Position numbers and translations under genes: made by a program
Notes under the pieces: generated by a model
Told to the model about the DNA's origin: nothing
The model's database searches: none
Seen by the model: only the letters and a program-made list of their open reading frames with translations
Part shown: positions 33,177-64,000 of the stretch, piece after piece
Numbering within the stretch: position 1 is the first letter of the stretch
How the letters are laid out: every line of letters begins with the position of its first letter
Assembly (NCBI RefSeq): GCF_020921035.1
Contig: NC_063154.1
Span: 27,165,948 to 27,229,947 of the forward strand
Direction of reading: 5' to 3'
Length of the DNA stretch: 64,000 nucleotides
Origin: Rhodamnia argentea
Taxonomy: Eukaryota; Streptophyta; Magnoliopsida; Myrtales; Myrtaceae

Positions 33177-35682
33177 ATGTCAGAAGAGGTGGAGTACCGC
33201 TGCTACATTGGTGGCCTTTCGTGGTCGACATCTGATAGAGGTCTAAAAGATGCTTTTGAAAAGTTTGGGCATCTGCTTGAGGCCAAGGTACAATTTATTA
33301 GCATCTATTAAATGTTTACAGTCCTTATCCATACGGTAACCATTAGACATGTATGACCGCCTCCTGGCTTCTAGAAATTACTTTTATGGTGGTAGAGAAT
33401 TTGATACTTCATGCTTTATAAGCTGCCAACCAAAGCAACAGGCCTAGTCTCATCAGGAAACTTCGGTACTTTAATTTGTATGCAAGAGATATTTGAACCC
33501 CATCCAATTGGGACAATTGGTAACTACATATTGTTTTGTGTCATTAATACATGCCAGCTAAATGAGGGTTGGCTGCATGGGTTATTGTGGTGAGTAAGTA
33601 GAAGATGCTCAACTTGCATAATCTACCTTAAGAGGCAATCTTAGATTGTGTTTAAGTAATGGACACTTGTTTTATGTTGCTGTTGAAACTCATTCACGTT
33701 ACGTTTTATAGATGTGAGCACTTATCGTTTATAGGACATGCTTGAACCAACATTCTAGTGATAGATGAGTGGGACGAAGTGTTGGTAGTATATTTAAACT
33801 TCTCGATCTACTACATTCTCAACCATACAGGTGGCTTGGATTGGTAACACTGCTATTCGTACATCAAGCAATGTCTTCACTATTCTTAGATCAAGCAATG
33901 TTTTCTTGCTTTCCAAGATGGTGCTTGCAACTACTTTACCTTTTCTCTGTCCTCTTGACTTAAGTTTCACGTCATTAGTCAGCCTTGGCTTCATCATAAT
34001 TGCTTGAACCAACTTGCGAAAAGTATATAGCAGTGTCTTTTGGAAACAAAGTGATTATTCTTATAAGGATGAGTTTGGTTGAGATACCATTTGCCACGCG
34101 TTCGATGGACATCTTAACTTGGTCCATGATGTCATTGATGTACATCATGAGCTGGGTTTTACTCACTTAAGGTGCGGTTCCTTGTCATCAGAAGAAGAAA
34201 AGGTGAAAAGGTACTAACAAGTAAAGCTGTTGGGGACTACTGTAAAAAGTTATCTTTTGAAGATTGAACTGGCGACGTTAAGAGCTCTAGAGGCTAATAG
34301 CATTGCTTTTTGAATGGATCAGAGTTGATACTCCATGTTCATGGGCAGATCTCACAAGTTCTGCATTGGTGCTTTTATCTACAAATTGGTTTTATGTTGT
34401 CTATTAAAATATCGTAGACTCTTTTTATAGATCAGTAGACAGAAAAAATCTAGCGACGGAAAATGTGCGTGGGAATTTGTATTTTCCATTGTGATCTAGT
34501 GTGGGTCAGTTGTATTTTCCATTGTGGTCTAGTGTGGGTCGCAATATTTTGTAATTTGATCGGTAAGGTCTAGTTCAGTGATTACGGGAAATAAGTGCTC
34601 TAGCATTATGATTAGTTTGTATGTTTAGGCTATTGACTCTATAAACCTAAGCTTCTTATTTTTGGAACATGAGATGCTTCTTTGCTGCAATTTCCTGAAA
34701 TTTCATTCGGTATTATTACTATCCTCATATGATAATGTGGGATGAAAAAAGCATTTTAATATCATTTAGGGCGTAATTGCAAAGCCATCCTCCCGTTTGC
34801 TCTTCATATCAAATATCCTCCTTGTCTTTCAAAGTCTACATTGTCCATCTCCCCAACCTAAAATGACCCATTTGCCCTGACGCATTCCTGAAATCTGCAC
34901 CCATAACGTGAAAATCCAATGTTGAGGATGGGATAATTTTGGGAAATTTGTGTGCGTATTTGTTTGTCTTTTTTTTTTTTTTTTTTGGTTTTTTGGGGGG
35001 GGGTTGGGGATGCAACTTTGATACCAATAAAAACAAAAAGTGAGGATGGTAAATTGTAGGTTTTGAAATGTAAGAATGGGGTGCTTGATATGAGGAGCAA
35101 AGTTGAGGATGATAATTTTCCGTTATATGACACAAACCAAGTCCAAGAAGAATATTTTTAATGCAGGTGGTGGTTGACAAGTTCTCTGGACGCTCTCGTG
35201 GATTTGGTTTTGTAACTTTTGATGAGAAGCAAGCAATGGAAGAGGCTATTGAGGCTATGAATGGGATGGACTTGGATGGAAGAAATATCATTGTGGAAAA
35301 AGCTCAGCCTCAAGGTTCGGGTAGAGACCAAGATGGTGATCGCAGTCGTGACCGTGGCCGTGATCGTGGCCCTAGTCGGGACTATGGTGGTGGACGTGGA
35401 GGTGGAGGGGGAGAGTGCTTTAAGTGTGGCAAGCCTGGGCATTTTGCAAGGGAGTGTCCTAGTGAAGGGGGCAGAGGAGGTAAGTATGGGGGGAGGGATG
35501 ACAGGTATGGAGGAGGAGGAGGAGGAGGTGGTGGTCGCTATGGTCCTGATCGAAATGGTGATCGCTCTGGCGGGCGCAATAGGGATAGTGGTACTCGAGG
35601 AGGATCAGGAAATGACCGCTATAGTCGGGACCGTTCTGGTCCCTATGAACGTCGCAGTACAGGAAACTTCCGTTCGGGGTAG
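33177..35682 (+). CDS. RZ1A: RZ-1A-like glycine-rich RNA-binding protein with CCHC zinc finger
   Basis: Nuclear RNA-binding protein of the plant RZ-1 group, linked to RNA chaperone activity and cold response in the family. Two coding exons (33177-33287 and 35167-35682) give 208 residues. The start [16 protein letters not shown] is the family's usual N-terminus. RRM at about 7-80, with RNP2 (CYIGGL, 9-14) and RNP1 (RGFGFVTF, 48-55), MNGMDLDGR, then an Arg/Asp/Gly-rich linker, the knuckle [14 protein letters not shown] (C121, C124, H129, C134) and an RG/RD/YGG-rich tail ending FRSG. The 5' UTR is split: first exon ends at 31810 (gtaagt), acceptor at 33130. A further intron in the 3' UTR (gtatgc at 35,700 to cttgtag at about 35,775) is likely. 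The last exon and the end of intron 2 have a broken copy at 47,796-48,246. Confidence 0.95.
33288..35166 (+). other. RZ-1A intron between RNP2 and RNP1 coding parts
   Basis: A 1.9-kb intron (gtacaa ... atgcag). It holds a two-unit tandem repeat at about 34,477-34,543 and a poly-T/poly-G tract near 34,971-35,008. Its last 370 bp are the part duplicated at 47.8 kb. Confidence 0.7.
34477..34543 (+). repeat. Two-copy tandem repeat of about 34 bp
   Basis: The unit TTGTATTTTCCATTGTG(A/G)TC, continuing TAGTGTGGGTC, occurs twice back to back with one substitution. Recent slippage or tandem duplication. Confidence 0.85.
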
Positions 35683-40974: not shown

Positions 40975-42811
40975 ATTCTCTACCTTGGCTCGACGTTTGC
41001 AGTCAAGTTATAGTGCTTAATTATTCATGCTAGCTCTCCCGGCGCCTCGACGGGCGCTCATACTCTACAGACGCCGATTGAGCTCAAGCAGAGCTCGAGC
41101 TTCGCCAAAGGAACCGACTTCATCATCATATCCACTGGATTCTCCGCTGTTGCTATTTTTATAACAACAATATTGCCCTTCGTTATGACATCTCGGATGA
41201 AATGGTACCATATATCAATATGCTTTATTTGCTCATGATAAATCGAGTTATAAGCCAGATGTATCGCACCTTGGTTGTTACAATATATAGTGACGCTTTT
41301 CTGCCCTAATCCAAGGTTTGAGAGCAAACCTTTCAACCATATCGCCTCTTTTGCTACAAAGGTTAATGCCATGTACTCTGCCTCGGTTGAAGACAAAGCA
41401 ACATGATCCCGAAAGGATGCTTTCCAACTTACCGCACCACCTGCTAGCTTAAATACGTACCTCGCTAACGATCTGCGGCCATCCAACTCACCGGGGTGAT
41501 CCGAGTTCACATATCCCGTGGTCTAACTTCCATTCCCATCCCTTCAGTATATGATACCAACGTCCGTTGTCCCCTTCAAATATCTAAGGATCCATTTCAC
41601 AACTTCTCAATGTGTCTTACCTTGGCGTTTCATGTAACGGCTGACAATGTTTACGACTTGTGAAATTTCAGGCCTAGTGCATAACATGGCGTGCATAATA
41701 CTACCCATTACACTAGAATATGGAACACGGGACATATGCTCCTCCTCTTCCCGAGTCTGCGGTGATAACTTATTAGAAAGTTTAAATTGTACAGCTAAAG
41801 GTGTACTTATAGATTTTGCTAACTACATGTTAAATCGTGCCACAATCTTCTCAATATATTTCTTTTGTTATAGACGTAACATCCCCGTAGCCTTGTCACC
41901 TAAAATCTCCATACCCAATATCTTCTTAACAGCACCTAACTCTTTCATTTTAAACTCAGCACTCAACCGCCGCTTCAGGATATCAATATCGGACATTTGT
42001 TTAGCTGCTATTAACATGTCATCAACATATAATAACGGATAAATCAAAGATCCACTCTCTAGTCTCCTAAAATAAACATAACTATCCATATGACTTTTCG
42101 AATAGTCCCGACTAGCCATGAAAGCATCAAAACGCTTGTACCACTGTTTAGGAGAGTGTTTCAGCCCATATAAAGATTTCCTTAATAAGCAAACATGATC
42201 CTCCTTATTCGAAATAGCAAATCCCTCCGGTTGCTTCATATAAATCTGTTCCTCCAACCATGAAGAAACGCCGTTTTTACATCTACCCGCTCCAACTTGA
42301 GATCCCGTGTAGCAACTAAAGCAAGTAATGCACGAATACAAGTATGTCTTACCACAAGAGAGAACACCTTATTGTAGTTGATGCCTTCTTGCTGAGTATA
42401 CCCCTTTGCAACGAGTCTTACATTGTACCTTGCTGCCTCGACACTGGGAATGCCTTCCTTTTGTTTGTAGACCCATTTGCACCCGACAATCTTTAGCTCT
42501 TAGGTTCTTTGACCAACTCCCATGTTTGATTCTGGTGGAGTGATTCTATTTCTTCACTCATAGCCTCTAGCCATTGTGATGACTTAGCACTAGCCATCAC
42601 CTTAGAGTAAGAAGAAGGCTCGTCTACCTCTACTTCATCACCTACAATCAATACATAGGCAATGTCAAAATAACCATAACATACAGGTGGTTTGATTTGC
42701 CTTTTCTATCTGTTCGTGGCTATATTGTGTTGAGGCTATGGTTGTTCTGTATCACCGTCTTCGAGAATTGTAGCCATATCCGCAGTCTCCTCATCGTGTA
42801 CCTCCGAATAG
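40975..42811 (-). mobile_element. Ty1/Copia polyprotein remnant (reverse transcriptase and RNase H)
   Basis: Minus-strand frames give, in order from the right: EPSSYSKVMASAKSSQW and LHQNQTWELV at the start of the reverse transcriptase; QIYMKQPEGF, SLYGLKHSPKQWYKRFD and the catalytic YVDDMLIA (41,868-42,341); PYSSVMGSIMHAMLCTRP; and RNase H with [22 protein letters not shown] and [13 protein letters not shown] (41,058-41,510). Several stops and frameshifts show decay. gag, protease and most of the integrase are absent: the element ends where the hAT remnant begins. Confidence 0.9.
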
Positions 42812-46570: not shown

Positions 46571-46729
46571 TTCCTGAAAAATAATTGCACTCCAACAAAT
46601 GCACTCTAAGAAGTAATGAATTCTTCTTCACCGTAGTAGAGATTGGCCTATTTTAGGTGTAAGAACTTTTTCCAATTTTAATAATAACCAACAATACTAA
46701 AAATGTAGAAGTTATAGAAAAATATATAT

Positions 46730-46952
46730 TGTAATTGAAATGAAAGTAAAGTTGATTATAAATTGTGAAACAGACCTACTTACATGCACGGCCAATAGTA
46801 TTCTGATTTTGAGTACTGGAAAGTCAAGATTTTATATGTTCGTGGAAAAGACTGAAGTCGTTGCCCCTACTAAACGGCCCGGAAATTCAGGGATTGGAAA
46901 GAGGCAATTGACAATGAACAAAAGTAGAACCCCAATGGTGTTTCACCTTTCT
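46730..46952 (+). pseudogene. Second relic of the receptor kinase promoter
   Basis: Matches 48,630-48,850 closely: attgtgaaacagacctactt, ggaaagtcaagatttta, gaagtcgttgcccc, ctaaacggcccggaaattc, gggattggaaagaggcaatt and ccaatggtgtttcaccttt. Similarity stops after cacctttc, well before the TATA region. Confidence 0.85.
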
Positions 46953-47795: not shown

Positions 47796-48246
47796 TTTGC
47801 TTTTCATATAAATACCTTCCTCACATTTCAAAATCTACATCGTGAATCTCCTCAACCTAAATTGACCTATTTGCCCTTATGCACGCCTAAGATCTCAACC
47901 AAAATGTTGAATCCAACGTTGAGGGGGTAATTCGAGAAATATGTGCGGGTGGGTAATGCAAGTTGAAATCTATTTTTTTAAAAGGAAGAATGGTAATTGT
48001 AGGCTTTGAAATGTGAGAATGGGATGTTTGATATGAGGAGCAAAGTTGAGGACGATATCTGTAATTTTCCCTGTAAAACAAAATAACCTCGAGAATAATA
48101 TTTTTAATGCAGGTGGTTGTTGACAAGTTTTCTGGTTGCTGTCGTGGATTTGGATTTGAAGATTTTGATTAGAAGCAATTCAGTGGAAGAGGCTATAGAG
48201 GCTAAGAATGGGATGGACTTGGATGGGAGAAACATCATTGTGGAAA
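47796..48246 (+). pseudogene. Broken duplicate of RZ-1A (end of intron 2 plus part of exon 3)
   Basis: Parallels 34,797-35,305 in order and orientation: intron text (cctaaattgacctatttgcc, gttgaatccaacgttgagg, gaatgggatgtttgatatg), the acceptor tttttaatgcag, then exon 3 from gtggttgttgacaag to aacatcattgtggaaa. The copied coding part has a frameshift and a TAG (gattttgattagaag against gatgagaag). The poly-T/poly-G tract of the source intron is absent. It ends before the glycine-rich region. Confidence 0.9.
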
Positions 48247-48384
48247 CGACAGGTTGGAAGGGCGAAACACGTTCCCACTACTTTCCCCATTTTCCCATGT
48301 CAAAAGCAAACCAAAGGTTGGACAGATGAAACACGTTTTCTTTGACTTTTCCCATGTAAATTTGTCAATGGAAGAGTAAGGAGA

Positions 48385-48420
48385 GGAAGGATCGTTGACT
48401 TGACTTGACTTTAAGTATGG
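48385..48420 (+). promoter_or_regulatory. Triple W-box cluster upstream of the intact receptor kinase
   Basis: Three tandem TTGACT units at 48395, 48400 and 48405 in the context atcgttgacttgacttgact. TTGAC(C/T) is the binding core of WRKY factors, typical of defence-gene promoters. About 680 bp upstream of the start codon. The same block recurs at 54,154, 63,114 and 63,830. Confidence 0.65.
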
Positions 48421-49000
48421 CACTTTTCCAATTTAATATCATCTGCCAGCTGCTACTTATTTACTTTTTGACAAGCTATACACCCTTTGGATTAAATACG
48501 TACCCAGTTCTTTAAAATTCCAATAATTTCTTAAATAACCCTGTGACTAGATTAAAATTTTGAAATTCATAATATAAATAGCACAGAGCTTGTCATGATT
48601 AATTAGTAATTCATATGTATATTACAATTGAAAAATGAAATTAACGTTGATTGTAAATTGTGAAATAGACCTACTTGCAAGTTACATGTACGGTTAATAA
48701 TAAAGCTGCTTCTGAGCACTGGAAAGTCAAGATTTTAAACGCGTGGAAAAGATTGAAGTCGTTGCCCCCACTAAACGGCCCGGAAATTCTGGGATTGGAA
48801 AGAGGCAATTGACAATGAACAAAAGTAGAACCCCAATGGTGTTTCACCTTTCATTGACTGACTTGATCATCAATTATTAACTTGCTTGTCACGGCCTTGT
48901 AATTTTCTCAACTTGAGATGACCATGAAAGATCTGTCATGATATTCTCCCATTTGATGACATCGACATGTCTTAGTAGGGAACATCATGTTGTCCGCTAT

Positions 49001-49083: not shown

Positions 49084-52000
49084 ATGGACCTTTCCTATGG
49101 AGACCGAATTTTAGCCAGGTCAGTCTCATGCTTAACTATTATCATTCTCTTGTTAGGGAGTGTCCTAGCTTTAATAGAAGCCAGTGGAGACGAGACTGAT
49201 CGGCTGGCTCTGCTGGAATTCAAGGCTCGAATAGTTGATCCTGGTGGTGTTTTGAGCTCATGGAATGACACTAGCCATGTCTGCGGCTGGTATGGTGTCA
49301 CTTGTGGTCGTAGACACCGTAGAGTCACTGTATTGGACCTCAACTCCTCGAAACTGATTGGGATCGTGCCACCCCATATTGGTAACCTAAGCTTTCTTAG
49401 GAAAGTCTATCTGAAAAACAACAGCTTTCACTCCGAAATTCCCCCGCAATTTGGCCGCTTGTTTCGGTTGCAGAAGGTGTCCCTCAATAACAACTCATTC
49501 AGCGGACAAATCCCTTCAAATCTCTCCCATTGCTTTAACTTGCTCTTTCTTAACTTAGGCTACAACATGCTAGAAGGAAATTTGCCTGCGGAGCTCGGCT
49601 CCTTGTCCAAGCTCCAAATACTCGTACTTGAAGTCAACAGCTTGACAGGAAACATTCCGCTGACATTTGGGAATTTATCCTCTCTTCAAATCTTCGGGAC
49701 AGCGAGGAATAACCTCGTCGGTACGATCCCAGAGACTCTCGGTCGGCTGAGAAATCTAACTACCCTTTCTCTTAGCTTGAATAAATTTGTCGGTACGATT
49801 CCCATCTCAATCTTCAATATATCCACCTTAAAAACCTTTTGGGCGGGTATGAACCAATTAGAGGGGAGCTTACCCAGCGGCTTAGGCTTCACTCTTCCGA
49901 ATCTCGAGGTAATTGGCTTGAGTGACAACCACCTTGGCGGACCCATTCCTGAGTCAATATCCAACGCCTCTAATCTTGCTAAAATTCAAATCGGAACAAA
50001 CAACTTTATTGGGAAAGTTCCTTCTTTCTCAAAGATGAGAGGACTCTCTTGGCTTGAAATTGGGGTAAACAACTTAGGAAGTTGGCAACTTGCTGATTTG
50101 GATTTCCTCTGCTCTTTAACCAATTCCACAGTATTGTATACGTTGGGCGCAGGGGACAATGCTTTTGGAGGACCTATCCCCGACTGTATCGGTAACCTCT
50201 CTATCACTCTTTGGCGCTTTGTTTTATGTGCCAATCATATTTATGGAACCTTACCTTCTGGAATCGGAAATCTCATCAATTTAGAGATTCTAGCAATGTG
50301 GAGCAATAACATCTCAGGAAACATTCCTTCCGAGATTGGAAATCTGACCAAAATGAAGAGAATGGATCTCAGCCAAAATAATTTCTCGGGACAGATACCA
50401 GAACTTATCGGGAATTTAAGGATGTTAACTGAATTGGTCTTGTATGGAAATAGTCTTCGAGGCTCGATACCATCGTCTCTAGGAAACTGCCAGAATCTAC
50501 TTCTCTTGGACCTTTCGACCAATGACCTCAGTGGTAACATACCACTGAAAATTGTGGGCCTCTCGTCTTTGTCAATTTATCTCAACTTGTCACGAAATGG
50601 TCTGACTGGTTCCCTTCCAAGAGAAGTTGGAAACTTGAAAAATCTCGGCGAACTACGTCTTGATGGGAACAAATTATCTCAACATATACCAAGCAGTATC
50701 GGTAGTTGTTTATCCATGGAACGCCTATACTTACATGATAACTTTTTTGAAGGGCCCTTACCATCAACTATGGGTTCCATGAGAGGCCTTCAGGTTTTGA
50801 ATGTTTCCAACAACCGATTGTCCGGCCATATCCCGGAGTTTCTAGGGTATCTGAATCTGAAGAATTTGAGCCTATCTTACAACGATTTTGAGGGTGCATT
50901 ACCTACAAGAGGAGTTTTCAGAAATATCATTTCAACTTCGGTTGTTGGAAACGAGAAACTTTGCGGGGGTATGCCAGATTTTCAACTACCAAAATGTGAC
51001 TACAAAGAGTCAAAAAGAACGAGAATAAGTGGAACTGTAAAAATCCTGATATCCACTGTCTCTACTCTTGTAGGATTAGCCTGCGTAATCTCTTTGTTAT
51101 ACTTCTTCTGGTTTAGAAACAGTAAGAAAGCATCAGCTGCATCAGCTTCATGCTCTTCTGAAGATGGGCTTTTGCATGTTTCTTATTACAATCTATTGAA
51201 AGCGACAGGTGGATTCTCCTCCACCAATCTGCTTGGCAAGGGCAGTTTTGGATCAGTGTATAGAGGGCTTCTTGATCAGACTCAGTCGATCGTGGCCATC
51301 AAGATTCTCGACCTTACATGTCATGGAGCCTCCAAAAGCTTCTTAGCTGAGTGCGAGGCCTTGAGAAGAATTCGACACCGTAATCTCGTAAAGGTACTCA
51401 CGGCATGTTCTGGGTTTGATTTTAATGGAAATAACTTCAAGGCACTTGTCTATGAATTCATGTCGAACGGGAGCTTGGATGAATGGTTGCACCCAACTGC
51501 ATCGCAATTTACAGAGAGAAGCAAGTTGAGCCTACTTGAGAGAGTGAATATTGCCATCGATATTGCTTGTGCACTAGATTATCTCCATCATCACTGTGAA
51601 ATGTCGATAGTCCATTGTGATATAAAGCCAAGCAATGTCCTTCTTGATGATGAGAAGATTGGACACGTAGGCGATTTCGGACTTTCCAGGTTCATCCCAG
51701 AAGCAATGAATAAGTTACTAGCCAATCAATCAAGCTCTATCAGACTGAAAGGATCTTTTGGCTATGTAGCTCCAGGTAATGATGCACAGGTGGCGTCTTT
51801 TTCTATTTATCTCATTATACAGAGTACATGACAGTAGACAGATCCTTTGAGAAAAGGCACGTGAAACAACACCGACACAATATTTCAATCTCAATCATTC
51901 ACCTTGCATCACTATGCGCTGTTGATTGTTGTAGAGTACGGCGTAGGAAGTGCGGTATCCACACATGGAGATGTGTACAGCTTTGGAGTCCTTATTTTGG

Positions 52001-52332
52001 AGATGTTCACAGGCAAGAGGCCGACTGATGACATGTTTGAAGATGGGCTGGACCTTCATGGCTTTGCAAAGGCAGCTCTGGCAGACCGAGTGGGGAAGGC
52101 AATCGATCCAGTTCTGCTTCAGGAAATTGACGTGTCAGAGAAGAGACAAACTGTTGCTCCGAAGGGCAAGAACAAAAGCTGGTGTAGTATTCAGGAGTGT
52201 TTGGCTTCGATCGTCGAAATAGGAGTCACTTCCTCTTCTGAGTCTCCCAGGGAACGAATGGACATCGGCGATGCATTGACTAAACTCCAAGGAGTCAGGA
52301 AGAAACTTCTTGAGTTCCTTGTCATTGCCTAG
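49084..52332 (+). CDS. LRR receptor-like serine/threonine kinase, subfamily XII (EFR/Xa21-like), non-RD
   Basis: Plasma-membrane receptor kinase of the family that includes EFR and Xa21, which sense microbial peptides; its ligand is unknown. Two exons (49084-51775, 51935-52332; intron gtaatg...ttgtag inside the kinase AP|E motif) give 1,029 residues. Signal peptide about 1-33; LRR N-cap with WNDTSHVCGWYGVTC; about twenty leucine-rich repeats of the plant LxGxIP type; transmembrane segment about 651-675. Kinase: P-loop GKGSFGSVY from G718, catalytic Lys 740 (VAIK), HCD at 844-846 in place of HRD, DFG from D864, APEYG, GKRPTDDMF. The missing Arg marks a non-RD kinase, as in pattern-recognition receptors. 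An open frame extends upstream only from a TTG, so the ATG at 49084 is used. Preceded by a TATA box and W-boxes. Confidence 0.96.
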
Positions 52333-53317: not shown

Positions 53318-54045
53318 TGTCACGCTCCGATCCTCGGGCTCGCTACATCCCTACCAAACTCGCCTCAGGTCACGAATGATAGTATTCCAAGTACACTATC
53401 GACCTACGAAATTACGGCACATGCGGAACGTGCAACTCTCCCAAACAATCAAGATCAGCGGGATAGAATAGTAGAAAGATCACTACAATCATTTCACAAA
53501 ATATGATTTCATTAATAAAGCAAGAGCAGATGAATTTTAACCTTTCGAAGCTACGGTAAACAAATACAACCCCGTGCTTCGAGTCGGCTCACTGGGATCT
53601 CAAAAAGACATATAGTCGGGTAAGGTTAAACTCTCATCTACTCCCAAAAGATCCTCCAACGACCCTCGCCTTAATGTCCACGGGCTCCATCACCGCTTGA
53701 AAATGGTTAACTACGACGATGTGAGAAATAAATGTCGGTGAGTCAATGCCTAAATCCGGCTAGGGCGTTGATTCGCTTAGACGTCCTAACAAACAATCAC
53801 GTCAACAAATAGCAGATATTTTAACCACATGTAATCTTACCCTCCATGCCATACATAATGCGATGCGGACCCGACTCAACAGTCAAATCAGCCAAACCAA
53901 TTTAATCAATTGGCAAAGCATCACAACACTTGCATGCACATGACATCACACGTAGTCCATTTATTATCAGCAACGACCCGTAGGTCCAGCACACTAGTTA
54001 GTTGATGCTCTCCTAGCAGTACCGGGCATCGTTCCTTGTTTTCGG
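53318..54045. mobile_element. LTR-terminus fragment related to the neighbouring solo LTR
   Basis: Begins TGTCACGCTCCGATCC, resembling the start of the element at 54,214 (TGTAACGCCCCGC); both continue to a ...CG(N)tacatcc box. It breaks off near 54,045, where receptor-promoter sequence resumes. Interpreted as a truncated relative. Confidence 0.45.
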
Positions 54046-54213
54046 GGTTGTTAGAGAAGCAAAGGTTGGACATATGGAGCAAATCTATGTTCCTACGACC
54101 GTTTCAAAGTGAGCCGTCCTGGTTATGCCCTAACGGAACAAAAAGAAGGACCGTTGACTTGACCTGGCTTGAACTCCCCCATTAAAATCTGCCGACCGCA
54201 ATTTGTTATTTGA
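54046..54213 (+). promoter_or_regulatory. W-box module of receptor copy 2, cut off from its gene
   Basis: gcaaaggttggacatatgg and gaaggaccgttgacttgacc match 63,017 and 63,105. Two W-boxes at 54154 (TTGACT) and 54159 (TTGACC). It ends at the 5-bp target duplication (TTTGA, 54209-54213) of the inserted element. Without the insert, the W-boxes would lie about 619 bp from the copy 2 start codon, close to the 684 bp seen in copy 1. Confidence 0.7.
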
Positions 54214-57200
54214 TGTAACGCCCCGCTTCCCTTACGAGCACGTACATCCATAACACGCTGTAAATACTATCCCAGGATACTCTTCATGTACGATGAATGA
54301 AAGGAAACTCGCAAGCAAGAAGCGAAAGAAAATAAACCCAACTCCAGTCCATCATCTCACTAAGTCACTTAATGAGATACGGGGAAACTAAAAGGCTTTA
54401 TCCACAGAAAAGAAAAAAATAAAATATAAATACATAGAGGTCTGTACAAACGATACCAAAAAAAAACTAACAATATACACAACCGAGGTCAAGGAGACAA
54501 GACGGCAAACCAAAAATGAAACCACCAAGCCCTAACCTAACATCGTCTCCAACAAAAAGTAGCATCAAAGTCGACCAACAACAGAGACTCTAGAAAGTAC
54601 TAGTGTCCTCGGCTTGGCTCGCGTACTCGTCGAGATCACACTCGGAGGAAGACTCCAACTGCACTTCGATTGAATCCTCGTCCATCTCGTCATCCTCTGA
54701 ATCTGAAATCTCTATTACTTCTAGATTTTCCTCTCTCGCTGGTTCTTTTTCAGGTATATTCCTTGAACCTACGGTAGGCGCTTCAACTTCTATTTCATCC
54801 CTGGTAGGGTGGCACCAAGAAGGTACAACCCCTTCTTGCACATCTTGGGGCCTTAACTGTTCAGATACGACCCCGTTTACTCTACGGAACCATGCCTCGA
54901 ACCTATGAGGCTTATAAGATGCTCCAGGCTCATCTACCCATACCACGGTCGTCCTTCTAATATATACTACATCTCCACCTTCAGGAAACTCCTCAATATA
55001 CCTAGTCATTTCTTGGGGTTCACCTAATCGGACAGGCAACATCTTCAATTTCTAGGATCTGAAAAAGAAAGGTCCCACGACGGGGTGAGATTTACATCTC
55101 AGTAAGGCAAGTCCTATCCCTAGGTTAGACCGACAGTTCATTCGAGCAAAAACAACATAAGCTCAATATGCATAGTAACGTGATGCATACAACAACCATA
55201 CAAAGCACATGTATAACAATAAGTATCAATTACTCAATCATGGCAATATGTCTCATCATTTACTTAAGACGATGCCCATAACCAAACCAAGCCACGCCTT
55301 CCTTTCTTTCCACCTTCATTCGATTCAAGCCCGCGTGTGAAACGCCTCAGGCTAGGTCTGCGTATTTACGCATCAGACCGTCTCATCGATAAAACCCACG
55401 TAAAACGTCTCGGGTTTTCAAAATCATCTCAGGCCTGTGTCGATACATCATAATTTCCGTCCCGCGTCACTTACGCATAAGGACGATGGCCATTTCCACC
55501 CCGCGTCTTTACGCATCGGGGTACCACAATTTTTCAAGCATACCAGCAATTCATCATAATCATGACTTCAAGTTCAAATATAGCTCACACATAGAGCTAA
55601 CAATAAAAGGCATGTGAGAACATAAATTTTCAACAAGCAAGAGGCAATCAATACATATCAAGGCTATTCAATGAGTCTTTAAGCAATTGGCACAACGCGA
55701 AATCATATATCAAACAACATCACCATAACTCACAAAAATTTGCACAATCCTCATCGTATTCACCCAATTGAACCCAATCGTTCTAGCCAAGGTATAAGAA
55801 CTTTCTTACCTTAAGCTTAATCAGCAAAACACTTCTTTCCTAGCCCTTAAACACCTCGGCTCCCACAATTTCAGAACAGGGCAGCAAGCAACCTAGAGGA
55901 AATCAATCAATTCATCAATATTCCTTCGCTTAAACGCCAAATCATCGATCATACACTTCCTCAACAAATCACTCCACACCCTAACATGGCTCAAGGATCA
56001 AATTACATCTCAATTCCATCACAAACAGCCCCCTCTAACTCAGCAAGAACAGAACCGAAACAGGGTACCCCCTGTTCTGTTTCAATCCAGCTCAAACAGT
56101 CCACAACTCAACCTAATCCTTCAATTTATCCATCAATATCCTTGCTAACACTAAGTTCTATGTATTAAGGGGCCTCACCGAAAATTTTGGCTCAAGGTGA
56201 CACCAGTTGGTCCTCGTTTGGCGCTAATTCCTTCTGATCCGCCATTGGACAGTTTCTGCTCCTTTGAACACAACAGTGGTTCAAGGTCAAGATATCATTC
56301 TTTTTCGCCCAAAAATTTACAGCAACATCATATACATGTCTACTAAACGTCACCAAAATTTGAGCTCAAAATTCGTCCGTTTGGTGGTCCAATGAAATAC
56401 CAACAGCAGCCTACCTCTGGTTGAGTCAGTTTCCGGCGACTCGCGGGAGATTGGCCGCCCTGAATTCCACAGTGGCTCAAACGGTGCACTTCCACTTGGA
56501 AAAGTTCGACAACAGGCTGATCTTCGCAGTGGTAGGTGGCTCACTGGCTGGTTGTCGACGGTTGAAAGGTTGGACGGCCGGGAAGTTGGCGATCAGAACT
56601 GGTCGGGTAAACTGTTCCTGTGCGTGAGGGAGTAAAGGAAGGAGAAAATGGAGGTGATGGTGGTGCTGTTCTGCTCTTGCATGTGAGTAACCAGATGATA
56701 GAAGAAGAAGATGGCTCATTCTCATCCAAATCCTCTTAGGTGTCAAGCTCATTAATTGAACACAATGGATTAATGACATTTGTCATTATACACATAATAT
56801 CACACTTTCCTTCCACTTTTGCCCCTCTAATTTCTGCTGATAAAAAAGGAATAATCAAATGACAATAATTCCCTTGTCCGATTAATAAAAATAGGGTCGA
56901 AGCTCCAGGGGCAAAATCGTCTTTTCACACCCTTCGTCCGAAAATCCATTTTTCACTGATTTTCATTCCCGACTAGGCGTCGTCCAATCTAAACTCATTT
57001 TTTTTTTTTAACAAATCTTCATTTCCATTTTTTTTCCCATTTCTGAGATCCCATTTCGTGATCGATTTCTCGTCGTCCGTAATTTCAATTTATCTCGAAC
57101 TAACGGGCGGCTTTTGCGGACATTACGCGTACCGACTCTGTGATTCTCATCACATTTAGAAAAATTCAAATCACGGCTATCTTGGTTGTCATGAAATCGC

Positions 57201-57557
57201 AAGGGTCTATTACTAGCCCCGACGGCCGCGATCGTCATAAATCGATTTAGGGAAATTCGCAAATCATACGTTGGTTATGCGGCATCACCCGCGTCCCAAC
57301 CGTATAACACTAGCAATGAATCCCTTAATCGTTTTCGGATCAGCCTCAGCTCTAAATATTCCCTCAACGACCCTTATGGTCAAAATGCCGTTTTCGAAAT
57401 GAATTTCCTAGGTCCACGTATCTCGTCACGCGTTAGCCTTTCCCCTTCGGTTAGTTAACTCGCGATTGATCGGATCCGAGCGAGATATAACTGAAATACT
57501 TCAGCGGATATCTTACGGTCAAAGATCTCGAAATGACAGGAAAATCAGACCGTCACA
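54214..57557 (-). mobile_element. Solo LTR or non-autonomous LTR element inserted in a receptor promoter
   Basis: 3,344 bp running from TGTAACGCCCCGC to CCGTCACA, flanked on both sides by TTTGA (54209-54213 and 57558-57562). TG...CA ends with a 5-bp duplication are the signature of LTR retrotransposon integration. No reverse transcriptase, integrase or internal LTR pair was seen, so a large solo LTR is most likely. It carries one 152-codon frame on the minus strand. A GC-rich area with repeated tttacgcatc words lies at about 55,340-55,520. Orientation is inferred from the frame. Confidence 0.75.
54590..55048 (-). CDS. Hypothetical 152-residue protein within the LTR-type element
   Basis: Open frame starting MKMLPVRLGEPQEM and ending in a strongly acidic tail (EVIEISDSEDDEMDED, then further Glu/Asp/Ser). 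A possible 3' splice acceptor (ctttctttttcag) lies just upstream on the same strand. I do not recognise the family. The N-terminal 75 residues have ordinary composition (VVYIRRTTVVWVDEP, HRFEAWFRRV). It could be an element-encoded accessory protein or a chance frame, and no function is proposed. Confidence 0.35.
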   Translation of the reverse strand: MKMLPVRLGEPQEMTRYIEEFPEGGDVVYIRRTTVVWVDEPGASYKPHRFEAWFRRVNGVVSEQLRPQDVQEGVVPSWCHPTRDEIEVEAPTVGSRNIPEKEPAREENLEVIEISDSEDDEMDEDSIEVQLESSSECDLDEYASQAEDTSTF

Positions 57558-58126
57558 TTTGATTATCAGACTTTTTAAAAAAATGCACTTGTCTAAATTG
57601 TGAAATAGACCTACTTTTTTTTTTTTTTTTTTGGGGTGGGTTGGGGCGGGGGCGGGGGTCGAAAGAAATAGACCTACTTGTCTGACAAAAAAAGAAAATA
57701 GACCTACTTATTTCTTTGCATTATTATGAATTGACTGTGATTTTATCTTGTGAATCAGACACTTGTCCAACTTCGAGCAAAACAATAGAATAAGACCAGG
57801 AGAATATGTGAAGAGAGCATTCTAAAGCAGCATGTAATTCACGACTGAACTTACAGACAAATCAGTATTCCAAAATTTTTTTTAAAAAAATCGCACTAGA
57901 AGTTTATTTAAACTAAATAGTGGCATTACCTCAAAGGCTTAATTTTCAATATTTTTACTAGTAGGGGAAATGTGATGCCTGCAAACTCTATTATATACTC
58001 GTAGCCAAAGATTTCAAAACTCTATGGAATCAAGAATACTCTCGTATTCACATTTACATCGTTTGGCCACTGCTTCGCACAAACGCCTAGAAAGGCTCAA
58101 GCTGAGAACAATCTGTTGCAAACCTC
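57558..58126 (+). promoter_or_regulatory. Proximal promoter of receptor copy 2
   Basis: Resumes after the second TTTGA. The phrase aatagacctactt occurs three times (57,604-57,712), the copies separated by a T-run/G-run and short spacers; copy 1 has it once. TATA box TATATA at 57992-57997 in ctattatatactcg, about 130 bp before the start codon. Confidence 0.6.
57617..57660. repeat. Poly-T/poly-G tract inside a duplicated promoter phrase
   Basis: Some 18 T, then G-rich sequence ending gggggtcgaaa. It sits between copies of aatagacctactt, as if an insertion had duplicated or captured that phrase. Confidence 0.7.
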
Positions 58127-61100
58127 ATGGACCTTCCCTATGGAGATCGGGTTTTATCCAGGTTATTCTCGTGCTTAACTACTGTCATTCTTCTGTTATG
58201 GAGTGTCCTAGCTTCAGCAGAAATGGGCAAGGACGAGACCGATTGGCTCGCTTTGCTGGAATTCAAGGCTCAAATAGCCGATCCTGGCGGTGTCTTGAGC
58301 TCGTGGAATGATACTAGCCACTTCTGCAAATGGTACGGTGTCACATGCGGTCGTAGACACCGAAGAGTCACCGTATTGAACCTCCAGTCCAAGCAACTCT
58401 CTGGAGTCTTGACACCCCACATTGGTAACCTGAGCTTTTTGACGGAAGTCTATCTGCAGAACAATAGTTTCTATTCCGAAATTCCCCCGCATTTCGGCCG
58501 CTTGTTTCGGTTGCAGAAGTTGTTCCTTAATAACAACTCGTTCAACGGACAAATCCCTTCAAATCTCTCCCATTGCTCTAATTTGCTTGTTCTTAACATA
58601 GGCTTCAACATGCTGGAAGAAAAATTGCCTACACAACTCGGCTCCTCGTCCAAGCTCCAACGACTCATACTTGGTGTCAACAGCTTGACGGGAAACATTC
58701 CGCCGTCCTTTGGAAACTTATCCTCTCTTCGAGCCTTCATACCAGCGGAAAATAACCTTGGCGGTACAATCCCAGAGACTCTCGGCTGGTTGAGAAATCT
58801 AAACATCCTTGCTCTTGGCGGGAATAAATTTGTCGGTACGATTCCTATCTCCATTTTCAATATATCCACTTTGACGATCCTTGATGTGACTGAAAACCAA
58901 TTAGAAGGGAGCTTACCCAACGACTTAGGCTTCACTCTTCCGAATCTCAACGAAATTGGTTTGAGTGACAACCACCTCACTGGAGCCATTCCTCGGTCAA
59001 TAACCAACGTCACAAATCTCGGGGTAATCGGAATCGGGTTGAACAACTTTAACGGAAAATTTCCTTCTTTTCCAAAGATGAGAGGACTCAATTGGCTTAA
59101 CATCGGCGGTAACAACCTAGGATGTTGGCGATGTTCTGATTTGGACTTTCTCTGCTCTTTAACCAATTCCACAAACTTGACAATGTTGGGAATAGCTGAC
59201 AACGCTTTTGGAGGACCGATACCCGACTGTGTTGGTAACCTCTCTATCACCCTTTCCGTTATTGGGTTAGGTGATAATCACATTTTTGGAACCTTACCTT
59301 ATGGAATCGGAAATCTCATCAATTTGGAGTTCCTGGGCATGGGGGGCAACAACATCTCGGGAAACATTCCTTCTAAGATTGGAAATCTAAGCAAAATGAA
59401 GTTTATGGATCTCGGCCGAAATAATTTTTCGGGGCAAATACCAGAATCTATCGGGAATTTAAGGATGTTAATCGAATTGTACTTGGATGGCAATAATCTT
59501 GGGGGCTCGATACCATCGTTTTTAGGAAATTGCCAGAATCTACTTCTCTTAGACCTTTCGAACAACGACCTCAGCGGTAACATACCCTCAGAAATTATGG
59601 GCCTCTCATCATTGTCGATTTATCTCAACTTGTCGCAAAATAGTCTTACAGGATCCCTTCCAGGAGAAGTCGGAAACTTGCAAAATCTCGGCATATTAAG
59701 TCTTGACCAAAACAAATTATCTCAACAAATTCCAAGCAGTATTGGCAATTGTATATCCATTGAATTCTTATACATACAAGATAATTTCTTCGAAGGGCCC
59801 CTACCATCGACTTAGAGTTCCATGAGAGGCCTTCAGGTTTTGAATGCTTCCAACAACCGATTGTCTGGCCAAATCCCGAAATATTTAGGGTCCATGAATC
59901 TGACGAATTTGTGCCTATCTTACAATGATTTCGAGGGTGCATTGCCTACAAGAGGAGTTTTCAGAAATGCCACCTCTACTTCAGTTGTTGGAAACAAGAA
60001 GCTTTGTGGGGATCTACCAGATTTTCAACTACCGAGATGTGACTATAAAGAGTCAAAACGAAGGAGCATAAATGGAACATCAAAAGTTCTAATTTCCATA
60101 GTCTCTGTTTTTGTAGGAGTGGCCTGCATGCTCTCTTTGTTATACTTCTTCCGACATGGACACAATAAGAAAACATCAGCTTTAAGCTCTTTTGAAGACG
60201 GGCTTTTGCATGTTTCTTATCACAGTGTACTCAAAGCGACAGCTGGATTCTCGTCCACCAATCTACTCGGCATGGGCAGCTTTGGGTCTGTGTATAGAGG
60301 GTTTCTTGGTCAGACTCAGTCGATCGTTGCCATTAAGATTCTCGACCTTACACGTCAAGGAGCTTCCAAAAGCTTCATAGCCGAGTGTGGAGCGTTGAGA
60401 AGAATCCGACACCATAATCTCGTGAAGGTACTCACGGTATGTTCTGGGTTTGATTTTAATGGAAATGATTTCAAGGCACTAGTCTATGAGTTCATGTCGA
60501 ATGGGAGCTTGGATGAATGGTTGCACCCAACTGCATCACAATGTATAGCAAGAAGCAAGTTGAGTCTACTTGAGAGAGTGAATATTGCAATTGATGTTGC
60601 TTGTGCACTAGATTATCTCCATCATCACTGTGAAATGCTGATAGTTCATTGTGATCTAAAGCCAAGCAATGTCCTTCTAGACGATGAAAAGACTGGACAT
60701 GTAGGCGATTTTGGGCTTGCTAGGTTCTTCCCAAAAGCAACACATAAGTTACTAGCTGATCAATCAAGCTCTATTGGAGTAAAAGGATCTTTTGGCTATT
60801 TAGCTCCAGGTAATGATGCAGAAGTTGAGTCTTTCAGCTTATATTCTATGTTGAACACGTAATTGGACAAAAAGGTATAAGCATGAAACATCACCTATAT
60901 TTCAATCTCAATTATTCACCTTGCATCAATATGCGCTGTTTATTGTTGTAGAATATAGCGGGGGAAGTGCAATATCCACAAAAGGAGATGTGTACAGCTT
61001 CGGAGTCCTCATTTTGGAGATGTTCACAGGCAAGAGGCCGACCGATGACATGTTTGAGAGTGGGCTGAACCTACATTGCTTCGCAAAAGCAGCTTTGGAA

Positions 61101-61349
61101 GACCAAGTGGAGAAGGCAATAGATCTCGTTCTACTTCAGGAAATCGAGGTGCTGGTCAAGAGACAAACAGTCACTCTGGAGGGGAATAACAAATGCTTGT
61201 GTAGTATTCAGGAGTGTTTGGTTTCGATCATCGAAATAGGAGTCACTTCCTCTTTCGAGTCTCCGAGGGCACGAATGGACATCAGCGATGCATTGACTAA
61301 ACTCCAAGGAATCAGGAAGAAACTTCTTGAGTTCATTGTCATTGCCTAG
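58127..61349 (+). pseudogene. LRR receptor kinase copy 2, nonsense-truncated
   Basis: Tandem paralogue of the gene at 49,084, in the same two-exon form (58127-60809, 60952-61349), 1,027 codons including the final stop. It begins MDLPYGDRVLSRLFSCLT and keeps the LRR domain, transmembrane segment, P-loop (GMGSFGSVY), VAIK, non-RD HCDLKPSN, DFG and APEYS. One in-frame TAG at 59813-59815 (codon 563), where copy 1 has ATG in PSTMGSMRG, stops translation inside the late LRRs. There is no other frame break, so the lesion looks young. If translated, it would give a secreted 562-residue LRR fragment without membrane anchor or kinase. The upstream LTR-type insertion may also impair expression. The tail GKRPTDDMFESG to FIVIA is intact. 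Confidence 0.93.
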
Positions 61350-62699: not shown

Positions 62700-63275
62700 T
62701 TTTCCTATTTAAAATGGTCAATGTTATCCGTCGGCCATACATAGGACTGCCTGTGCGCGATTTCCTGCCTAAATTATGATTTTTATTAGCAATCGCGCCG
62801 TTGTCCCTCCAATGGATTGTCAAGAAATCATCGATCAAGACGGTAAACATGTCTTGTTATCAAAGGATTCACCCAATGGCTCGGACATATAAGTTGTTAG
62901 GTTAGGTTAGATCAGGATTGGTGATGCGTGTCCAATGATTAGTTAATTTGGTATTACTACTTTATATAATCCGGGACCTTTTTCAATTCATTGTTTTCAC
63001 GGAAATGAAGGGCAAACGAAGGTTGGACATATGGAACAAATCCACGTGCCTAACACTGTTCAAATGGGAGTCGGCTTGGCCATGCACTTCCAGAACAAGG
63101 AGAAGAAGGACCGTTGACTTGACTTGGCTTGAACTGCCGCACTTCTTCAATTAAATATCATGTGCTTACCGCGACTTGTTTAACTTTATAACAGCTACAT
63201 ACTATTCATTTTTTCCCTCCGCCGGCAGTCGATCACTTGCCAATGGCCCATGAAAGTCGCCAGCTATGATTGTGA
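62700..63275 (+). repeat. Direct repeat unit A containing the receptor promoter W-box module
   Basis: Shared with 63,505-64,000: aaaatggtcaa, cctaaattatgat, ttgtccctccaatggattg, aacatgtcttgttatca, gacttgacttggcttgaac, caattaaatatcatgtgct and catgaaagtcgccagcta. W-boxes TTGACT at 63114 and 63119. Unit A also has gcaaacgaaggttggacat, found at 54,050. Confidence 0.85.
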
Positions 63276-63504
63276 TGCCTTCACGCAGATTCGGGCGAGG
63301 GCCCCAGATCACCCTCACCCAAATTAGGTGATGGTGTCGCAACCCTTGCCATGCTCTTGTAGGCCATCACCGAGGTCCTGACGAACTGCAAAGTGAAGAA
63401 GATGAACCATAGAAGGAAATAATAGTACAAAAACAATAAAGAAAGGAAAGAAAAGAAATTAAATTTAGAAAGCTTACAAAAAAATTGCAAAAGGACGACA
63501 TTTT
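63276..63504. other. Spacer between the two direct repeats
   Basis: Contains a C/T-rich then AG-rich stretch with tcaccca and gaggtcctga; ends in A-rich sequence. It resembles the GC-rich cores of the dispersed repeat family, but this is not firm. Confidence 0.4.
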
Positions 63505-64000
63505 ATTTAAAATGGTCAATTTTATCCGTCAGACATTCCAAACAGGACATCATGTGCCCGATTTCTTGCCTAAATTATGATTGTTAGTAGCAATCATGCA
63601 ATTGTCCCTCCAATGGATTGTCAAGAGAACACTCATCAAGACGGTCAACATGTCTTGTTATCATAGTATAATATTCACCCATTTGGCTCGAACATAAGAC
63701 TTGTTAGGTTAGGTTTGATAAGGACAAGTGATGTGTGTCAAATGATAAGTTAATTTTGGTATTTCTACTTTACATAACCCGGGACCTTTTTTTGATTCAT
63801 TGGTTTCAGAACAAGGAGAACAAGGACTGTTGACTTGACTTGGCTTGAACTTCTGCACTTCTTCAATTAAATATCATGTGCTAACCGCAACTTGTTTATT
63901 TTTATAGTATCTGTATACTATTCATTTTTTGCCCTCCGCCGGCCGTCGATTACTCGCTAATTCCCATGAAAGTCGCCAGCTACAGGCAATGAACGTGATG
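63505..64000 (+). repeat. Direct repeat unit B, W-box module at the window edge
   Basis: Second copy of unit A, with W-boxes TTGACT at 63830 and 63835. It lacks about 90 bp (the ggttggacatatgg part) between gatcattg-like sequence and agaacaaggag. The repeat runs to the window edge, where gccctccgccggccgtcgat and catgaaagtcgccagctac still match unit A. Confidence 0.85.

Follow-up and report, generated by a model that had tools for sequence, protein, structure and literature searches.

A probable solo long terminal repeat of a Ty3 retrotransposon in the promoter of a stop-bearing receptor kinase copy in Rhodamnia argentea

Plant genomes commonly contain solo long terminal repeats (LTRs) close to genes, and their receptor clusters commonly include broken copies. 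In the grape VvMYBA1 gene, according to the portion of the source available, a full Gret1 element in the promoter of the VvMYBA1a allele is held to block expression, while VvMYBA1b, the allele with the solo LTR of this Ty3 element, is expressed (PMC10249860). The rice Xa21 family of leucine-rich repeat (LRR) receptor kinases is reported, in the accessible part of one account, to contain as many as 17 transposable elements (PMC5056178), and the excerpted text of another describes Xa21D as cut to its ectodomain by Retrofit and conferring partial resistance (PMC3036077). Here, we describe a 64,000-nucleotide stretch of the R. argentea genome (NC_063154.1, positions 27,165,948 to 27,229,947, forward strand; hereafter the window), in which a 3.3-kb insertion, best read as a solo LTR, lies in the promoter of the second of two tandem LRR receptor kinase genes, copy 1 and copy 2. 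As in grape VvMYBA1b, a solo LTR is found in the 5′ flank of one copy, but in grape the allele with the solo LTR is expressed and colour appears, as far as that source goes, whereas here the gene is a receptor gene with a stop in its coding sequence. As in the rice family, in the parts of the rice papers seen, LRR receptor kinases carry transposon insertions and one member is reduced to an LRR ectodomain, but Xa21D was truncated by the retrotransposon itself, whereas here base changes make the stop and the LTR lies upstream. Each part of the locus has a known parallel. Among the papers listed by a literature search for a solo LTR with W-boxes (core TTGACY) in a receptor promoter, none mentioned a solo LTR, which does not prove that no such case has been published.

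The account that we consider likely is that a long-LTR Ty3 retrotransposon, most probably of the Del/Tekay lineage, entered the promoter of a tandemly duplicated LRR receptor kinase gene, downstream of the W-box block and upstream of the TATA box, with duplication of 5 bp at the target, and that recombination between the LTRs of the element, the usual route, then deleted its internal region, so that a single solo LTR of 3.3 kb, directed away from the gene, remained. The distal W-boxes would thereby have been shifted from about 0.6 kb to about 4.0 kb from the start codon. A stop at codon 563 would have been gained independently, leaving at most a secreted or degraded LRR ectodomain without the transmembrane segment or the kinase, and the locus would be a decaying member of a receptor cluster. 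On this account, the promoter insertion adds little demonstrable consequence, and ordinary decay of a duplicated gene is likelier than a clean promoter lesion.

The exons of the two genes were placed as follows.

49084..51775, plus strand: LRR receptor kinase copy 1, exon 1, with no internal stop
51935..52332, plus strand: copy 1, exon 2 (1,029 amino acids in all; coordinates include the stop)
58127..60809, plus strand: LRR receptor kinase copy 2, exon 1, with an in-frame TAG at 59813-59815, codon 563
60952..61349, plus strand: copy 2, exon 2, with splice sites set by comparison with copy 1 and an open frame up to its stop

Copy 1 is a non-RD LRR receptor kinase (Xa21/FLS2-like), with LRRNT, LRRs and kinase identified by Pfam, the motif HCDIKPSN, in which C replaces R before the catalytic D, a hydrophobic, transmembrane segment at about residue 654 and a kinase from about residue 710. 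Its best solved relative is FLS2, the query for Pfam and for the solved-relative search being the translation of exon 1 extended 56 nt into the intron. The alignment of copy 2 with copy 1 spans 1,026 codons, with 3 gap columns, no frameshift and 77% amino-acid identity; at codon 563, copy 2 reads TAG and copy 1 reads ATG, and the rest of the 1,026-codon gene is open. Both the transmembrane segment and the kinase of copy 2 lie downstream of this TAG and copy 2 does not form an open receptor kinase gene, indicating that, as assembled, it is unable to make a receptor kinase, whatever its promoter. The 562 open codons ahead of the stop have a hydrophobic N-terminus with LRRNT_2 and LRR matches in Pfam. 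Synonymous divergence (dS) between the copies is 0.39, and the ratio of nonsynonymous to synonymous divergence (dN/dS) is 0.33 overall, computed without gapped and stop codons and without codon pairs joined only through a stop.

An earlier reading of the window from its sequence (the original prediction) had called the insertion in this defence-receptor promoter a concrete regulatory lesion. That claim is not supported, as the copy 2 protein, in this assembly, is broken by the TAG independently of its promoter, and as a gene may still be expressed with a solo LTR in its promoter, as reported for VvMYBA1b in the available portion of PMC10249860. Given the stop, the loss of a receptor through promoter insertion cannot be inferred from the sequence. 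The locus thus carries a caution, that the coding sequence should be checked before a promoter lesion is named. The in-frame stop of copy 2 was absent from the original prediction.

A retained ectodomain raises the alternative that copy 2 still yields a functional, truncated receptor-like protein, whose expression the LTR has altered. The 562 open codons with their N-terminus, LRRNT_2 and LRR matches and a dN/dS of 0.34 would fit such a protein, and ectodomain-only rice Xa21D confers partial resistance in the part of the source seen (PMC3036077). We nevertheless regard this as quite improbable, since dN/dS is equally low past the stop and the constraint is not confined to the ectodomain. Nonsense-mediated decay is also likely for a stop so far upstream of an intron, which counts against a truncated product. 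It is very doubtful, too, that copy 2 is alive and, through its stop codon, encodes a secreted LRR protein acting as a decoy or co-receptor, with its induction re-set when the solo LTR moved the WRKY sites 3.3 kb away; if true, this would represent another, independent way of arriving at a molecule like Xa21D.

The insertion upstream of copy 2 and the duplication on its two sides are located as follows.

54214..57557, minus strand: solo LTR, 3,344 bp, with TG...CA termini and a flanking 5-bp duplication
54209..54213, strand not applicable: target site duplication TTTGA, left copy, from the sequence at the junction
57558..57562, strand not applicable: target site duplication TTTGA, right copy, from the sequence at the junction

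The letters at the junctions are GTTATTTGA / TGTAACGCCCCG on the left and GACCGTCACA / TTTGATTATC on the right, the slash marking the element edge. The flanks (48 nt on the left, 53 nt on the right) and the element ends were compared with the related promoters, each comparison against 500 single-base shuffles. The left flank matched the promoter at 63.8 kb clearly, with a score of 17.0 against a shuffle maximum of 13.0 and a match that stops 2 nt short of the junction, and matched the promoter at 63.1 kb narrowly (13.5 against 13.0), stopping 6 nt short. The right flank matched the copy 1 promoter with 25.0 against a shuffle maximum of 17.0, and this match begins 11 nt past the duplication. 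No significant match was obtained between the left flank and the copy 1 promoter (90 of 500 shuffles equally good) or between the right flank and either of the downstream promoters (83 and 142 of 500), and all six tests of the element ends against the three related promoters were null (299 to 489 of 500). Self-comparison of the window also paired the left flank, 54062-54181, with 63019-63141 at 78%. Given this flank homology and the lack of any match for the element ends, the flanks are read as one old promoter with the element inserted between. The insertion, the duplication and the flank homology are confirmed as real. The original prediction had placed an LTR-type 3.3-kb insertion downstream of the W-box block and upstream of the TATA box, which the termini, duplication and flank homology support, and the boundaries that it gave, TG...CA ends with TTTGA on both sides, are those found here.

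The best reading of the element sequence is a solo LTR. Self-comparison of the element gave no LTR-type direct repeat and showed just a single pair, of 40 bp at 70% (E 0.25); no TGG start of a primer-binding site occurred in the 24 nt following the minus-strand end (TCAAATAACAAATTG...), and no polypurine tract was found in the run preceding the minus-strand start (...GTCTGATAATCAAA). The element has 17 stop-free frames at least 60 codons long; the 11 of these scanned with Pfam contained no retrotransposon domain, and the other six are 60-65 codons long. The longest of these frames holds one open reading frame (ORF).

54590..55048, minus strand: longest ORF within the LTR, 152 amino acids, probably not a gene by the shuffle test and Pfam

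The longest stop-free frame, of 153 codons, was equalled in 196 of 1000 dinucleotide shuffles of the element; the 152-amino-acid ORF gave two Pfam matches, both below cut-off, and ten further frames gave one match altogether, in one frame and likewise below cut-off. A captured or LTR-borne gene inside the LTR was rejected, given a length reached this often by chance and Pfam matches only below threshold.

Read on the minus strand, the element starts with TGTGACGGTC (U3 end) and finishes with GGGGCGTTACA (U5 end), and TGTRACG is present at both ends in inverted order. The sense strand would accordingly be taken as minus, and transcription from the LTR, if any, would be directed away from copy 2. 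From its U5 end and its length, the element probably belongs to the Ty3 Del/Tekay lineage, in a comparison that covered Del/Tekay, CRM and Reina LTRs. In the portion of PMC4029996 available, Del/Tekay LTRs range from 1.1 to 4.8 kb, with eudicot subgroup means of 1,190-3,737 bp, and a U5 of type A (GGG at -8 to -10) is given for every eudicot Del group and for the monocot groups except VII-IX. The 3,344 bp of the element fall inside this range, and GGG stands at -8 to -10 in GGGGCGTTACA, which fits Del type A. In the sugar-beet survey, Tekay LTRs are 2,561-3,000 bp with one exception of 1,049 bp and 5-bp duplications throughout, and CRM and Reina LTRs are 0.4-1.3 kb, among the table rows seen (PMC3605345). 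The closest described elements are Del/Tekay eudicot group I (PMC4029996) and sugar-beet Bongo (PMC3605345), which, in the passages available, also have LTRs of about 2-4 kb with TG...CA termini; the 5-bp duplication is shared with Bongo and the U5 GGG at -8 to -10 with Del type A. Unlike those elements, only a single LTR remains here, without a coding region for placement in a tree. Solo LTRs arise by unequal recombination and the duplication may be retained, according to the part of PMC7251063 seen, and we infer the same origin here. The observed-to-expected CpG ratio is 0.98 in the element and 0.69 and 0.67 in the flanks; the high value would fit, weakly, a young or little-methylated insertion.

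The 3.3 kb may also be another kind of insertion, such as a non-autonomous element, or a long LTR from a different Ty3 lineage, Tat/Ogre or Athila, an alternative that concerns the element only and is compatible with any reading of the gene. It would accord with a Del/Tekay assignment drawn from ends and length and with the failure to retrieve any relative of the element in the window, plasmid, phage and viral-contig searches. We consider it unlikely, as the TG...CA termini, the inverted TGTRACG ends, the 5-bp duplication and the absence of a long internal repeat argue against it. A 5-bp duplication is, moreover, of a length unsuited to hAT, Mutator, CACTA or PIF elements.

Several observations weigh against a solo Del/Tekay LTR beside a decaying gene. 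The TTTGA duplication by itself could be chance, identical outer 5-mers occurring in 4 of 825 TG/CA pairs (25 TG by 33 CA within the two border zones searched); the insertion call is solid because promoter homology stops at the junctions, the duplication alone being weak evidence. For the gene, dN/dS is 0.32 after the stop and 0.34 before it, with no sign of long relaxed selection. Equal values across the stop suggest that it is recent relative to the duplication, or an allele, or an assembly error, and are not the mark of an old pseudogene, so that decay may be too strong a label for copy 2. For the lineage, a type A U5 is common to many monocot Del groups as well, and the att letters are only partly given in the text of PMC4029996. 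No second copy of the element was found in the 64-kb window or among plasmids, phages and viral contigs, the latter being non-plant collections, so that this carries little weight; in the viral contigs, one 21-base pattern had no match, and a peptide pattern from the ORF matched 20 stretches, none of them confirmed.

The W-box blocks, and the stretch between the element and the copy 2 start codon, are located as follows.

54154..54164, plus strand: two overlapping W-box cores, TTGACT/TTGACC, in the copy 2 promoter (starts 54154, 54159), aligned with the blocks at 48395, 63114 and 63830
48395..48410, plus strand: three overlapping W-box cores in the copy 1 promoter, without insertion (starts 48395, 48400, 48405)
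63114..63124, plus strand: W-box pair in a third related promoter, without insertion (starts 63114, 63119)
63830..63840, plus strand: W-box pair in a fourth related promoter, a tandem copy of the third, without insertion (starts 63830, 63835)
57563..58126, plus strand: proximal promoter and leader of copy 2, with TATATA at 57992-57997 and with 57574-57615 homologous to copy 1 at about 48628-48675

In the 64 kb, TTGACY occurs 55 times on the plus strand and 47 times on the minus strand. Neighbours at most 12 bp apart on the same strand were found on the plus strand only, at four sites, all of them in the four related promoters, and none on the minus strand. The W-box block is a feature common to this promoter family, and its cores are candidate WRKY sites. 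With the element and one TTTGA removed, the two W-boxes of copy 2 lie 624 and 619 bp from the ATG at 58127 (58127-54154-3349 = 624), and those of copy 1 lie 689, 684 and 679 bp from the ATG at 49084; the distances of about 619 and 684 bp in the original prediction hold on recomputation. The first W-box of copy 2 is now 3,973 bp from its ATG.

This displacement bears on the alternative that the insertion silenced a working defence receptor by parting the W-boxes from the core promoter, and that the stop came later, under no selection. Besides the increase from 624 to 3,973 bp, the limitation of clustered W-boxes to the four related promoters, which suggests that the block has been kept, and the equal dN/dS on either side of the stop, which fits recent gene death, would be consistent with silencing. 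It is nevertheless unlikely in our view, as the copy 1 and copy 2 promoters have diverged in any case and the grape allele VvMYBA1b, as far as that source goes, is expressed with a solo LTR in its promoter. The locus offers three related promoters without the insertion, and the order of insertion and stop would be readable from haplotypes.

The copy 1 and copy 2 promoters could be aligned in short patches only (84 bp at 68%, 64 bp at 73% and 29 bp at 86%), and the distance from the W-boxes to the common TAAATTGTGAAATAGACCTACTT motif is 243 bp in copy 1 and just 80 bp in copy 2 without the element. Because the promoters fail to align outside these patches, copy 1 is uninformative on the regulation of copy 2. 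In the self-comparison of the window, the copy 1 promoter at 48378-48478 is related to the 63019-63141 block and to the fourth site at 63.8 kb. Part of the copy 1 promoter, 48615-48852, is also repeated 1.9 kb upstream at 46722-46951 (86%), indicating that this promoter has itself been rearranged. By its sequence, copy 1 is a diverged paralogue that has undergone rearrangements of its own, and not an empty-site allele. The proposal that the promoter before insertion can be read directly therefore holds in part: the flanks are joined in the right order, but the copy used for comparison is not an allele. Near the right edge of the window, tandem copies of the W-box promoter (62706-63266 and 63504-63982) are 82-88% alike, which suggests that a third receptor gene may lie just beyond it.

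A second LTR-like end, TGTCACGCTCCGATCC, is present at 53318, 0.9 kb to the left of the element, with a right limit near 54031 guessed from the start of promoter homology; the CpG ratio of this stretch is 1.12. In a search for its far end and duplication, the one exact recurrence, within 9 kb, of the five bases preceding it after a CA was at 59044, which lies inside the receptor gene; with one mismatch allowed, in a search up to 54100, the sole hit was at 53434, giving no convincing far end or duplication. Comparison with the element gave no convincing similarity (12 short matches, E 1.2 or higher). Rfam returned nothing at gathering scores over the window. Elsewhere, 35036-35299, which overlaps the ORF of an RRM/zinc-knuckle protein (35161-35682), is repeated at 47980-48246, just upstream of copy 1, with 83% identity, and a Ty1/copia-type reverse transcriptase remnant lies on the minus strand at 41868-42341 (Pfam RVT_2, E 2.2e-31).

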